Shown here: piece after piece, positions 40,811-46,194 of the stretch
Position numbering within the stretch: position 1 is the stretch's first letter
Layout: each line of letters begins with the position of its first letter
Assembly (NCBI RefSeq): GCF_022808855.1
Contig: NZ_JAKZLF010000003.1
Location: 1 to 64,000 of the forward strand
Length of the DNA: 64,000 nt
Source: Anaeromyxobacter soli
Lineage (GTDB): Bacteria; Myxococcota; Myxococcia; Myxococcales; Anaeromyxobacteraceae
Reading direction: 5' to 3'
The notes under the pieces: generated by a model
Told to the model about the DNA's origin: nothing
What the model saw: the letters and a program-made list of their open reading frames with translations, nothing else
Databases searched by the model: none
Translations under genes and position numbers: made by a program

Positions 40811-41434
40811 TCAGGCGAGCAGGTCCGAGACGTCGCCCTTGCCGACGCGGAGCACCCGCGGCTCGGCGCCGGAGAGCTCGATGACCGAGGACGGCTCGTT
40901 CGGCTTGTAGCCGCCGTCGAGCACGAGCTCGAGGCCGTGCCCGAGCTTCTCCTTGATGTCGTGCGCGTCGATGAGCACCTCGCCGTCCGGGGTCGCGGCC
41001 GAGGTGGAGATGAGCGGGTGGCCGAGGCGCCGGACGATCTCGAGCGCGATGGGGCTGTCGGGGATCCGGATGCCGACGGTCTTCTGGCGGCGCAGGACGA
41101 GGTCGGGCACGAGCCGCGTCGCCGGGAGGATGAACGTGTACGGCCCGGGCACCTTGCGGCGCAGCACGCGGTAGGCGGCGTTGTCGACGATCGCGTAGCG
41201 CGCGATCTCGGCGAGGTCCTGGCAGATGAAGGACAGCTCGTGCGAGCGGGGCAGCTGCTTCAGCTGGTAGATCCGCTCGATGGCGCGCTTGTCGAAGAGA
41301 TCGCAGCCCAGCCCGTAATAGGTGTCGGTCGGGAAGGCGAGCAGCCCGCCGGACGAGAGCACCGAGACCGCCCGCTCGACCACGCGGGGCTGGGGGTGCA
41401 GCGGATCGATCTCGACGATGGGGGCGACCGGCAT
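40811..41434 (-). CDS. YrdC/Sua5-family threonylcarbamoyl-AMP synthase
   Basis: 207 residues, YrdC/YciO size. GGLLAFPTDTYYGLGCDLFD and YQLKQLPRSHELSFICQDL are the core substrate-binding motifs, followed by KVPGPYTFILPAT and VGIRIPDSPIALEIVRRLGH. The first step of t6A tRNA modification makes threonylcarbamoyl-AMP; YciO paralogues look similar, so assignment to TsaC function is probable rather than certain. AAGGAGG precedes ATG 41434. Confidence 0.88.
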   Translation of the reverse strand: MPVAPIVEIDPLHPQPRVVERAVSVLSSGGLLAFPTDTYYGLGCDLFDKRAIERIYQLKQLPRSHELSFICQDLAEIARYAIVDNAAYRVLRRKVPGPYTFILPATRLVPDLVLRRQKTVGIRIPDSPIALEIVRRLGHPLISTSAATPDGEVLIDAHDIKEKLGHGLELVLDGGYKPNEPSSVIELSGAEPRVLRVGKGDVSDLLA

Positions 41435-41605: not shown

Positions 41606-41800
41606 TCAGCCGCGGGACTTCCCGCGCTCGATGAGCTCGCGGACCTTCTGCCCGCCCTTTCGGCCGATCTCCTCGTAGAACGAGTGACCGCGCTCGTCCC
41701 GGACGGCGATGCCGCCCTTCCGTCCCGCCTCCGACACCGTCATCCCGCGGCGACCCTCTTCCGGCTCGCCGCGACGCGCGCCCTTCTCTTCGTCCGCCAT
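41606..41800 (-). CDS. KGG-motif stress protein (short)
   Basis: 64 residues, highly charged. Two KGG repeats: SEAGRKGGIAVRDERG and FYEEIGRKGGQKVRELIERG. These small hydrophilic repeats, with a GRKGG core, define the stress-induced KGG family (related to plant Em-like hydrophilins); they accumulate under desiccation or starvation. GAGGGGGG precedes its ATG. It lies 32 bases downstream of the longer KGG gene and shares its repeat. Confidence 0.88.
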   Translation of the reverse strand: MADEEKGARRGEPEEGRRGMTVSEAGRKGGIAVRDERGHSFYEEIGRKGGQKVRELIERGKSRG

Positions 41801-41832
41801 CGTACCCCCCTCAAGAGCACCTCATCGGTGCG

Positions 41833-42225
41833 TCAACGCTCGCCGCCCGTGTGACCGGCGCCGGCGTCCTCCTCCGCCCCAGCCTTCCCCTTCTCGATGA
41901 GCTCGCGGACCTTGTGGCCACCCTTCCGGCCGATCTCCTCGTAGAACGGCGTCCCCCGCTCGGCCTTGATCGTCTCGCCGCCCTTCTTCCCGATCTCCTC
42001 GTAGAAGCGGGGCCCGCGCTCGGCCTTGACGGTGTCGCCACCCTTCTTGCCGATCTCCTCGTAGAACTTGCGACCGCGCTCGGCCTTCACGGTCTCGCCG
42101 CCCTTCTTCCCGATCTCCTCGTAGAACTTGCGGCCGCGTGTCTCGCGGACGCGCACGCCGCCCTTGCGACCGGCCTCCGAGACCGTCATCGCTCCCTTGC
42201 TGCCGCCCTTCTTCTCCTCAGCCAT
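41833..42225 (-). CDS. KGG-motif stress protein (five repeats)
   Basis: 130 residues with five KGG repeats of exactly 20 residues (GRKFYEEIGKKGGETVKAER type), so the DNA is a 60-base tandem repeat at about 41881-42180. Sequence is very hydrophilic, Lys/Glu/Gly-rich, without a fold signature. ATG 42225 overlaps the RimK-like ligase stop by eight bases; the frame extends nine codons upstream. Copy number of such repeats may vary between strains. Confidence 0.87.
   Translation of the reverse strand: MAEEKKGGSKGAMTVSEAGRKGGVRVRETRGRKFYEEIGKKGGETVKAERGRKFYEEIGKKGGDTVKAERGPRFYEEIGKKGGETIKAERGTPFYEEIGRKGGHKVRELIEKGKAGAEEDAGAGHTGGER
41881..42180 (-). repeat. Five tandem 60-base units encoding KGG repeats
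   Basis: Five consecutive 60-base units align position by position; the three central ones (41941-42120) are most alike, sharing for example CCCTTCTTCCCGATCTCCTC or one-base variants. The outer units are diverged. They lie entirely inside the KGG gene and preserve its frame. Confidence 0.85.
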
Positions 42226-43165
42226 TTGTCGCCCCCATCCAGTCAGGAACAATGTGGTCGCTGGCCACGCGCCGGCGCAGCGCCCGACCGAGCACGTGCT
42301 CGGCGATGGCCTCCGCCATGTCGAGGCCCGTGGCCTCGAGGATCCCCTGCCAGCTGGGGTTCCCGTTCACCTCGATGACGGTGGGCCCTTCGGGTCCCAC
42401 CACGACGTCGACGCCCGCGTAGTCGAGCCCGATGGCCGACGCCGCAGCCTCGGCCACCGCGGCGAGCGCGGACCCGAGCGGCACCGCCTCGGCCCGTCCC
42501 CCGGTGGCCACGTTCGTTCGCCAGTCCCCGGGTGGCGCGTGCCGCTCGATCGCGGCGCGTGCGCGCCCCCCGACCACGAACACCCGGACGTCGCGTCCGG
42601 GATGAGGAACGTAGCTCTGGAGGTAGACCGCGCCCTCGCGCGCGAGCCGGTCGCGGAGCACCGCCCTCCCGGCGGCGTCCGCGCGAACCCGCTCGACCCC
42701 GTCCCCGAGCGAGCCTGCGATGGGCTTCACCACGGCCTCGCCGAGCGCCGCGAGCGCGCCCTCCGCGCCGCGCGCGGTCTGCGCGACCGCGGCGCGGGGC
42801 GTTCGCACCCCGGCGCGCGCGAGGAGCCACGACGTCCTGAACTTGTCCTGCGCGGCGAGGAGCGGGTCGATGCGGTTCACGACCACGGCGCCGCTGTCCT
42901 CGAGCGCGCGGTAGATCTCGAACTGCACGTCGGCGTCCCCGGCGCGGCCCATCCCCCGCGCGAGCACGAAGGCATCGAAGGCCTCGGCCTCACGCCCCTC
43001 CGCAGTCACCGTCACGCCGCCGTCCCTGTCCACGATCGCCGCGAGCTCCGCTGGATCGATCACCGCCGCCTCGCCGTGGCGAGCGCAGGCGCTGACGAGC
43101 CGCTTGCTGTGCCAATCGTCCTCGGGCCAGGCGGTCACGATCCCGATTCGGATGACATCGTTCAT
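42218..43165 (-). CDS. RimK-like ATP-grasp amino-acid ligase
   Basis: 315 residues. ATP-grasp motifs: VVKPIAGSLGDGVERV (phosphate-binding loop), VYLQSYVPHPGRDVRVFVVG, and VIEVNGNPSWQGI with metal-binding Glu and Asn. RimK-family enzymes add glutamate (or other amino acids) to the end of a protein such as ribosomal protein S6 or to a cofactor. The overlap with the first KGG gene (eight bases) makes a three-gene unit of a ligase and two stress proteins. Its substrate is unknown. Confidence 0.87.
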   Translation of the reverse strand: MNDVIRIGIVTAWPEDDWHSKRLVSACARHGEAAVIDPAELAAIVDRDGGVTVTAEGREAEAFDAFVLARGMGRAGDADVQFEIYRALEDSGAVVVNRIDPLLAAQDKFRTSWLLARAGVRTPRAAVAQTARGAEGALAALGEAVVKPIAGSLGDGVERVRADAAGRAVLRDRLAREGAVYLQSYVPHPGRDVRVFVVGGRARAAIERHAPPGDWRTNVATGGRAEAVPLGSALAAVAEAAASAIGLDYAGVDVVVGPEGPTVIEVNGNPSWQGILEATGLDMAEAIAEHVLGRALRRRVASDHIVPDWMGATNG

Positions 43166-43367: not shown

Positions 43368-46169
43368 CTAGGGGAAAGGCCCGGAGCCCTGCTCGGGCCG
43401 GGCCAGCGCCGCGGTCAGGGCGGCGACCACGCGGGCGGCGCGCTCCCCCTCGAGCGGCCTACCGTCGGGCGTGCGGACGTAGAAGGCGTCGGACGCGCGG
43501 TGCCCCTCCGTCGCGATCCGGGCGAGATCGACGGAGAGCTCGAGGTCGAAGAACGTGCGGGCGAGCGTGTGCAGGAGGCCCACGCGATCGGCGGTGAACA
43601 CGTCCACGACCGAGTGCGTCCGTGCGCTGTCGTTGTCGATGACGATCTTGGTGGGCACGCGTGGCAGCGGCTTCTCGGGGAGCGAGGAGGCGCGCAGGCG
43701 CCGCGCGAGCAGCGCGTCGAGCGACTCCTCTCCCGCGAGCACGCGCGCGAGATCGCCGCGCGCCCCGCGCCAGCGCGCCGGGTCGACCGCGCCCTCCTCC
43801 GGTCCGCGCAGCTCGAACACGTCGAGCGCGCGCCCGGCGAGCCACCCGAGGCCCGGGTCGTCCGCGGACGAGAACACCTCGGCGGCCTGGATGTCGATCC
43901 GGTGCGCCGCGAGGACGCCGGCGACGGTCGCGAGGAGGCCCGGCCGATCGCGCGCGGCGAGGGACAGCTCGGAGTAGCCGAGCGCCGGGTGGTGGCGGAG
44001 CGCCGTCGCGACGGGCAGGTCCCGCCCGCGGCGCAGGAGCCGCAGGTGGCGCGGGGCGAGCGCGGGGTCCACGGTGACGAAGTAGCGCGCCGGCATGGCC
44101 TGGACGAACCGGGCGTGCTCCGCGTCGGCCACCCCCGCGCGTGCGAGCAGCGCGGCGGCGACGCGCTCGCGGCCCGCGGCCTCGGCGGTGCCGGGCTCCG
44201 GGCGGCGCTCGCCCTTCTCGAGCACCTCGCGCGTCTTCCCGTAGAGCTCGCGGATGAGGCGCGCCTTCCAGTCGGTCCAGGTGCGCGGCCCGACCGTCGC
44301 GATGTCCGCGTAGGTGAGGAGGTAGAGCTTGTCGAGCCGGTCCTTCGTCCCCACCTCCTCCGCGAAGGCGTGGATGAGGTCGGGATCCGAGAGGTCTCGC
44401 CGCTGGGCGATGGCGCTCATGCGCAGGTGCTTCAGGACGAGCCACTCGATGTCGGCGGCGTCGGCGGGATCGAGCCCCATCCGCACGCACGCCTCGGCGG
44501 CGATCTCCGCCCCCCGCGCCGAGTGATCCTTCCCGGCCCCCTTGCCGATGTCGTGGAACAGCGTCCCGAGGTAGAGCGCGAGCGGCCGCTGGACCGCGCG
44601 CGCGAGGTCGCCGAGGCCGTCCTCGCTCACGTCGCCGCAGCGCAGCGCGAGCAGGCGCCGCACCGCGAACAGCGTGTGAACGTCCACCGTGTACACGTGG
44701 TAGACGTCGATCTGCCGCCGCGCCGTCACCCGCGCGAACTCGGGCAGCACGCGGGGGAGGACGCCGATCTCGTGCATCTGCGTGAGGAAGCGCCCGCGCG
44801 TCCCGGGGCGCGTGAAGCACGCGAGCAGCTCCTGGTTCAGCTCCGGGTCGCTCGCCGCCTCCGGCGCGAGCTCCTCCGCCGCCTGCCTCGCGAGGTCGCG
44901 GGCGTAGGGGTAGAGATCGAGCTGCTCGCGGTCGGCGGTCGCGAAGAGGCGCACGAGCGCGGCGGGGGACCGCCGCAGGACGTCGGTGTCCACCACCGTG
45001 AGCCGCCCGCGGAACACCTTGAACTCCCCGCCCGGCAGGAGCCGCTCCGACGCGCGCGGCGGCCGCCCGCCCAGCACGGGCACCGCGAGCTCGGCGCCGA
45101 GCGTGGCGGCGGGAGGCGGCACCATGCGCCAGCCCATCGCGGCCTGCGGCTCGAGGCAGCGATCCACGATCGCGTCGCTCGCGACGAGGACCGTCTTCGC
45201 CGCGAGGTAGTAGTGGCGCATGAACTCCTCGACGGCCGAGCCGTGCTCGGGGTCGAGGTAGCCCATCGCCCGCGCCACCTCGGGCTGGACGTCGAAGGTG
45301 AGCTGGTCCCACTTGCGGCCCGCGAGGTAGTGCATCTCGTTGCGGACCCGCCAGAGGAAGTCGCGGGCGCGCCGCATCTCGCGGATCTCGCGCTCGGGGA
45401 GGAGCGCGCGCGCGAGGAGCTCCGTGATCCCGGCGACCTTGAAGCGGACGCGGGCGAGCCAGAGCGCGGACTGGAGGTCCCGCAGCCCGCCCTCGGACTC
45501 CTTCACGTTCGGCTCGAGGAGGTAGATCGAGTCGCCGAAGCGCTCGCGCCGCGCGCGGATCTCGTCGAGCTTGTCGGCGAGGAACTTCTCCACCTTCTGG
45601 GCCGAGAGCCCGTGCAGCTCCTCGCGCTCGAGCTCCGTGTACAGGGCGCGGTCGCCCGCGAGCCAGCGCAGATCCAGGAGCGCGGTGCGCGCGGTGTGGT
45701 CCTGGGTCGCGAGCTCGTCGCAGGCGCGGAGGTCGCGCACGCCGTAGCCGACCTCGAGCCGGAGGTCCCAGAGCGCGTAGAGGAACCGCTCGCTCGCGGC
45801 CTTCACGAAGGCGTCCGGCTCACCCGGGCCATGCAGCACGAGGAGGTCGAGATCGCTGTGCGGCGCGAGCTCGCGGCGGCCGTATCCCCCGAGCGCGACG
45901 AGCGACACCGGCGAGGGCGCCTCCGCGTCCCGCGCCGCGGCGCAGGCGCGCTCCCACAGCGCCGTGACGATCCGGTCCATGGCCGCGCTCTGGAGGCGGA
46001 CGACGGTGTGGCCGCTCCCCCCGGCGCGGTGCACCTCCTCGACGAACCGGCGCTGCGCGGCGAAGTCCGCCTTGACGTCGCCGGTGAGCGCCGGGAGCTC
46101 GGCGAGGCGGGCCTCGAGCTCGAACGGCGCCGCGGCCGGCAGGGTCGGGTGGACTTCGGGCGGGCGCAT
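43368..46169 (-). CDS. glnD: [Protein-PII] uridylyltransferase GlnD
   Basis: 933 residues (GlnD about 850-950). N-terminal nucleotidyltransferase: GGYGRRELAPHSDLDLLVLH with two catalytic Asp; central HD phosphohydrolase: FHDIGKGAGKDHSARG; two C-terminal ACT domains (one with ALGYSELSLAARDRPGLLAT, another with DVFTADRVGLLHTLARTFFD) that sense glutamine. It uridylylates PII at low nitrogen and removes UMP at high nitrogen. ATG 46169 chosen over the adjacent GTG 46172. No glnB is adjacent. Confidence 0.95.
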   Translation of the reverse strand: MRPPEVHPTLPAAAPFELEARLAELPALTGDVKADFAAQRRFVEEVHRAGGSGHTVVRLQSAAMDRIVTALWERACAAARDAEAPSPVSLVALGGYGRRELAPHSDLDLLVLHGPGEPDAFVKAASERFLYALWDLRLEVGYGVRDLRACDELATQDHTARTALLDLRWLAGDRALYTELEREELHGLSAQKVEKFLADKLDEIRARRERFGDSIYLLEPNVKESEGGLRDLQSALWLARVRFKVAGITELLARALLPEREIREMRRARDFLWRVRNEMHYLAGRKWDQLTFDVQPEVARAMGYLDPEHGSAVEEFMRHYYLAAKTVLVASDAIVDRCLEPQAAMGWRMVPPPAATLGAELAVPVLGGRPPRASERLLPGGEFKVFRGRLTVVDTDVLRRSPAALVRLFATADREQLDLYPYARDLARQAAEELAPEAASDPELNQELLACFTRPGTRGRFLTQMHEIGVLPRVLPEFARVTARRQIDVYHVYTVDVHTLFAVRRLLALRCGDVSEDGLGDLARAVQRPLALYLGTLFHDIGKGAGKDHSARGAEIAAEACVRMGLDPADAADIEWLVLKHLRMSAIAQRRDLSDPDLIHAFAEEVGTKDRLDKLYLLTYADIATVGPRTWTDWKARLIRELYGKTREVLEKGERRPEPGTAEAAGRERVAAALLARAGVADAEHARFVQAMPARYFVTVDPALAPRHLRLLRRGRDLPVATALRHHPALGYSELSLAARDRPGLLATVAGVLAAHRIDIQAAEVFSSADDPGLGWLAGRALDVFELRGPEEGAVDPARWRGARGDLARVLAGEESLDALLARRLRASSLPEKPLPRVPTKIVIDNDSARTHSVVDVFTADRVGLLHTLARTFFDLELSVDLARIATEGHRASDAFYVRTPDGRPLEGERAARVVAALTAALARPEQGSGPFP

Positions 46170-46194
46170 CACGCGAATATAGCCGGGCGGCGGC

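Follow-up and report, generated by a model that had tools for sequence, protein, structure and literature searches.

Known substrates of the RimK group of ATP-grasp ligases include S6, LysW and pterins. RimK and LysX/ArgX target the C-termini of proteins, and LysX/ArgX share with the system described here both a fold and a small protein partner, which in their case is LysW, a pairing with which the titles of matching PDB entries are consistent (RimK with RpsF; ArgX with LysW). Graspetide synthetases such as PsnB and MdnB/C are likewise ATP-grasp ligases that lie beside small Glu/Lys-rich repeat proteins. GsiB is a general stress protein, and KGG, GsiB and YciG proteins are related to those studied here by a shared repeat motif and a LEA-like composition. 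In the locus that we describe, such KGG proteins are preceded by an ATP-grasp ligase. An initial annotation knew of no description of this pairing, and we likewise found no prior description of it in the open PMC literature.

The window, by which we mean the whole 64,000-nt stretch of Anaeromyxobacter soli DNA that was analyzed, contains the following features, given in the order in which the minus strand is read:

43368..46172, minus strand: glnD (PII uridylyltransferase; Pfam), the upstream flank, outside the unit but adjoining it in several families
43165..42218, minus strand: RimK-fold ATP-grasp ligase, 315 aa, the first gene of the unit (ORF, Pfam/NCBIfam)
ATG at 42225 to 41833, minus strand: five-motif KGG (LEA_5-like) stress protein, 130 aa (ORF, Pfam)
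41800..41606, minus strand: two-motif KGG protein, 64 aa (ORF, PF10685)
41567-41534, minus strand: terminator-like hairpin, a stem of 13 pairs preceding a T run (hairpin scan)
40811..41434, minus strand: sua5/yrdC (threonylcarbamoyl-AMP synthase type; Pfam), the downstream flank, outside the unit

The spacing reported by the initial annotation is exact, with the ATG of the five-motif KGG gene lying inside the ligase ORF to give an 8-nt overlap and with 32 nt separating the first KGG gene from the second. The stem and T run of the hairpin that it called terminator-like are also present, but the scan returned 2 sites of this kind in 5 kb compared to 1.0 +/- 1.1 in shuffled sequence, so a terminator is plausible but does not exceed chance expectation. 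Both KGG proteins passed the Pfam cut-off for KGG (PF10685, 20.4 bits), the five-motif protein with 40.8 bits and the two-motif protein with 27.2 bits, and the five-motif protein additionally matched LEA_5 (PF00477; 43.5 bits, cut-off 40). The best explanation for this layout is that the ligase and two KGG genes form one operon and would be co-transcribed. PADLOC returned no match for any of the three proteins, and on this basis a defence role for the unit was rejected.

The ligase resembles RimK in its fold, in its matches to PF08443 (96.7 bits; cut-off 21) and to the subfamily-level NCBIfam model TIGR00768 (rimK_fam; 179.8 bits vs a cut-off of 143.4), and in its intact ATP-grasp catalytic residues, K108, K147, R194, R208, N218, D253, E265 and N267 being invariant in 18/18 ligases. 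It differs from RimK in falling far below the equivalog cut-off for the S6 ligase (107.6 of 331 bits), in adjoining KGG genes and in forming a clade separate from the RimK-like paralogues of Myxococcota. Scores also fell below the cut-offs of the LysX equivalog (151.8 of 275.6 bits) and graspetide/peptide-maturase models (GRASP_SAV_5884, 52 of 350 bits; another, 22.9 of 425), as well as that of the top-ranked NCBIfam match, the tetrahydromethanopterin:glutamate ligase MptN (212.1 of 350 bits). When the AF2 model of the ligase (pLDDT 89.0) was compared with solved structures, the closest matches were RimK (5zct; Z 30.3, rmsd 2.4, 284 aligned residues, 29% identity) and LysX/ArgX (5k2m; Z 29.6), while glutathione synthetase (Z 24.7) and the graspetide synthetases (Z 23.5 and below) matched more weakly. 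The graspetide synthetases are also the weaker match in sequence, and a further difference is that the KGG repeat occurs without any ligase as well. The terms "KGG" and "stress" occur 0 times in the main text of a graspetide survey (PMC8939145), which gives the leader signature Phhx(1,2)h. By eye, PFYEEI in the last KGG repeat matches this signature; since the ligase-free families f2 and f5 share PFYEEI, the match provides no evidence for a graspetide leader.

Phylogenetic analysis placed the KGG-linked ligases in one clade (support 97; 94/94 in a second analysis) apart from the Myxococcota RimK-like paralogues. Its sister was a group of four plasmid ligases (support 99), two of which lie in annotated methanopterin/methylotroph C1 clusters, in a tree that held only these four C1-type/plasmid rows and no named RimK or LysX. 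Residues fixed within the KGG-linked clade, including L68, D79 and L153, are rare or absent in the paralogues and C1 ligases, and many of these residues sit in the N-terminal third of the protein.

Querying 147 genomes of the class with the ligase recovered 21 orthologues (44-100% identity), below which only RimK-like paralogues were found. A profile search of 195 phylum genomes returned the same 21 ligase-bearing genomes, with the lowest full-length clade member scoring 366 bits, the split gene of G138 scoring 312 and the best outsider 185. The closest named ligase locus is that of A. terrae (95% identical), and 3/3 genomes of the candidate phylum UBP13 also carry the ligase, the first record having come from a genome-collection scan. 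Searching 13 genomes with a UBP13 ligase as query recovered an unchanged best locus in each. In all 24 ligase genomes, spanning two phyla, between one and six KGG genes lie directly 3' of the ligase on the same strand, and no ligase of this clade was found without a KGG gene among them; in G138 the ligase gene is divided between two contigs, and the part observed adjoining KGG is its tail alone (L045). An adjacency found in 24/24 clade ligases is not chance, and the arrangement, for which the initial annotation proposed a search of other genomes, is not limited to this strain. By the first-ATG rule, the first ligase-KGG gap measures -25 to +99 nt across the 24 genomes, and in the window's own family it is exactly -8 in 12/13 genomes and -11 in the remaining one. 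No KGG gene was detected beside RimK-like paralogues at 15 distinct loci (9/9 + 9/9 surveyed; flanks about 1.5 kb or less) or beside viral RimK-like relatives at 37 loci. Conversely, no annotated ATP-grasp ligase was found within the 2-3 kb examined around four plasmid KGG genes, which differ in this respect from the KGG proteins described here.

The order glnD-ligase-KGG-sua5 is kept throughout the window's family and in L069. Elsewhere, sua5 is present and glnD absent beside ligase-KGG in L068, and neither gene is found there in L070, L074 and UBP13. Neighbors at variant loci include genes for EPSP synthase, an isocitrate/isopropylmalate dehydrogenase family protein, a GH123 family protein, an ABC1 kinase and a polysaccharide deacetylase. 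The upstream and downstream genes vary in f4, f8 and UBP13, and the ligase-KGG step is constant. The type of the first KGG gene also varies, being lysine-rich with two motifs in f9 and f4 and short with one or two motifs in UBP13. At the UBP13 loci (L040, L065, L066 and L078), five or six tandem KGG genes follow the ligase. The codon-usage gene caller applied in the neighborhood analysis performs poorly on the UBP13 loci.

We detected KGG homologues in 106/147 class genomes. Of these 106, 21 also carry the ligase and 85 do not, and the remaining 41 genomes of the class lack both. The window's family is split between 13 genomes that have both ligase and KGG and 11 that have neither. No KGG gene was found in 50 phylum genomes (48 from other classes, plus 2 of the 147 class genomes), a set that has no positive control. 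Dependence appears to be one-way, in that the ligase seemingly needs KGG and KGG can do without the ligase. Since KGG is retained without the ligase in 85/147 class genomes, modification cannot be essential for KGG function generally. Several ligase-free genomes still have KGG after glnD or before sua5, and in family f2 (L051-L053) four-gene KGG arrays lie between glnD and sua5 with no ligase.

The five-motif KGG protein is under extreme protein-level constraint despite its poorly ordered prediction (AF2 mean pLDDT 48.9, with helical segments of low confidence). Its 98-aa core is 100% identical across three genera of the window's family, in which MutS is 75-79% identical. Between G000, G013, G015, G017, G021 and G023, the core differs at 14-27 synonymous codons and at no amino acid, while G022 and G024 of the same family show one to three amino-acid differences. 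We rejected this ultraconservation as a mark of the ligase, since the core of the ligase-free family f6 is likewise 97-100% identical with diverged synonymous codons, indicating that the constraint belongs to KGG and not to the pairing.

Linked and ligase-free five-motif proteins were compared at their C-termini and along their repeats. The C-terminal residue is Glu in only 7/24 linked proteins (9 R, 7 E, 4 K, 2 D, 1 H and 1 G) compared to 28/32 ligase-free proteins (11/13 + 17/19). The second Glu of the repeat motif FYEE shows the opposite trend, being Glu in 95/96 linked repeats vs 82/128 ligase-free repeats (29/52 + 53/76), counts from which the broken gene of G068 and all KGG genes having fewer than five motifs are excluded. 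Its family-weighted conservation is 0.96 in six linked families vs 0.42 in four ligase-free families, and at least one non-Glu residue occurs at this position in 32/32 ligase-free proteins vs 1/24 linked proteins. The F, Y, first E, I, G, K, G and G of the repeat are conserved about equally in the two sets. However, controlling for phylogeny reduced the independent pairs to one where branches are supported and to four on the best tree, and the contrast is accordingly not significant; the difference in family f6 reduces to one fixed E-to-T change. Furthermore, in f8, f9 and f4 the partner KGG genes of linked arrays deviate from FYEE, often lacking the second Glu in f8 and f4, and directly behind the f4 ligase the KGG gene carries FYQA in place of FYEE. 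The contrast was found post hoc in sequence comparisons and is suggestive, a lead on where to look rather than proof.

We judge it about an even call that the ligase of this unit is a dedicated KGG-protein ligase with KGG as its substrate. This reading draws on the adjacency in 24/24 genomes, which holds also where the flanks and the type of the first KGG gene have changed; on the separate ligase clade, with its invariant catalytic residues and clade-specific fixed residues; on the finding of KGG in all 21 clade-bearing class genomes, with the both-or-neither split of the window's family, and beside none of the paralogue and viral loci; on the activity toward proteins of the enzymes with the closest solved structures, RimK and LysX/ArgX; and on the FYEE Glu, which differs where other invariant repeat positions are equal. 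The initial annotation had proposed that the ligase modifies a KGG stress protein; the functional pairing in this proposal is well supported by the adjacency across two phyla, and the modification is what we infer from it. Weighing against a dedicated KGG ligase are the ability of operon partners to share stress regulation rather than be enzyme and substrate, the occurrence of KGG in genomes that lack the ligase, the equally strong conservation of the five-motif core in those genomes, and the limits of the FYEE contrast given above.

If the ligase does act on KGG, the first gene would encode a putatively active ATP-grasp carboxylate-amine ligase, and the substrate would be the KGG repeat protein or proteins from the next gene or genes. 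A carboxylate would be activated as an acyl phosphate and then coupled to an amine, so that an amide bond would arise on a KGG repeat or between repeats, with the internal FYEE glutamate being a more likely site than the C-terminus. The reaction might tune a LEA-like stress protein that functions unmodified in other lineages. An operon in which a dedicated ligase is constantly joined to KGG would give enzymatic access to the repeat, could be tested clearly by mass spectrometry and would add a protein-directed branch to this ligase group.

Two alternatives would leave KGG untouched by the ligase. It is possible, if on balance unlikely, that the product of the ligase is a small molecule, either a glutamyl conjugate or a short peptide such as its MptN-like relatives make, and that it shares the operon only because all are stress genes. 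The rank of MptN among the NCBIfam matches is consistent with this idea, as are the sister ligases in C1 clusters and the retention of KGG without the ligase elsewhere. However, the KGG ligase differs from the MptN/C1-cluster ligases in its sub-cut-off score and its clade-specific fixed residues, and its hosts lack mch (PF02289), which was found in 0/24 ligase genomes by a search whose control was positive in 3 archaea, so the ligase is not an H4MPT enzyme. A free-standing metabolic enzyme would also be expected to part from KGG somewhere, and 0/24 do. Very improbable, in our view, is a frozen ancestral order around glnD-KGG-sua5 into which the ligase was inserted once with no functional link. 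Although the full order conserved in the window's family and L069 would fit such a history, as would the glnD-KGG or KGG-sua5 neighborhoods retained in several ligase-free genomes, the flanks change in f4, f8 and UBP13 while ligase-KGG persists. Moreover, UBP13 lies far from Myxococcia in the tree of the species marker MutS, the backbone of which is weak (glnD was dropped as a marker since it was matched in only 7/20 genomes); nesting of the UBP13 ligase within Myxococcia gave a p-AU of 0.325.

If KGG is the substrate, the remaining question is where the bond would be made. Addition of glutamates to the free C-terminus of KGG, as by RimK, would be in keeping with the RimK fold and subfamily of the ligase and with the C-terminal action of RimK and LysX/ArgX, and ligase-free lineages arguably encode the terminal Glu that others add. 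However, linked C-termini are variable and, unlike LysW in the LysX/ArgX comparison, offer no conserved C-terminal Glu. With Glu being the rule at ligase-free C-termini and the exception at linked ones, a RimK-like reaction at the protein end is not what the data naturally suggest, and the amino-acid addition to the KGG protein end put forward by the initial annotation is not favored. The contacts of RimK with poly-glutamate, given in PMC10092738 as S7, R8, S14, R64, S68, R189 and N262, show a mixed picture: our reading of the alignments places R189 and N262 at the invariant R194 and N267 of the ligase, but R8 and S14 at A12 and H19, with the placement of R64 and S68 uncertain. We regard C-terminal glutamylation as quite improbable.

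A more specific form of the dedicated-ligase reading, improbable as it stands, is that in each repeat the ligase modifies the second Glu of FYEE with one amide bond, either as a glutamyl side-chain branch or as an E-to-K lactam to the invariant lysine of FYEEIGxK. Glutamyl branches on side chains are made by the tubulin polyglutamylases, and an E-to-K lactam to a lysine four residues on is a helix staple. If this were true, the repeats would be stapled or branched singly, and a disordered LEA-like protein could become ordered or more charged when needed. A RimK-fold enzyme would then be modifying a stress protein internally, repeat by repeat.

Some further features of these genomes were observed in passing. 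glnD was unfound in 13/20 genomes (G101, G104, G139, G141, G142, G144 and others), several of which have KGG near sua5; this may reflect either real loss or low sensitivity. The genome from which the window comes contains two more KGG loci (L001/L077 4206-4382; G000 C16:73372-73530), neither adjoined by a KGG-clade ligase. In f9, a long N-terminal part rich in Lys, Ala, Arg and Thr precedes the KGG motifs of the first KGG gene (L069 6982-7479; L075 6315-6644), and by eye this part looks histone-H1-like.
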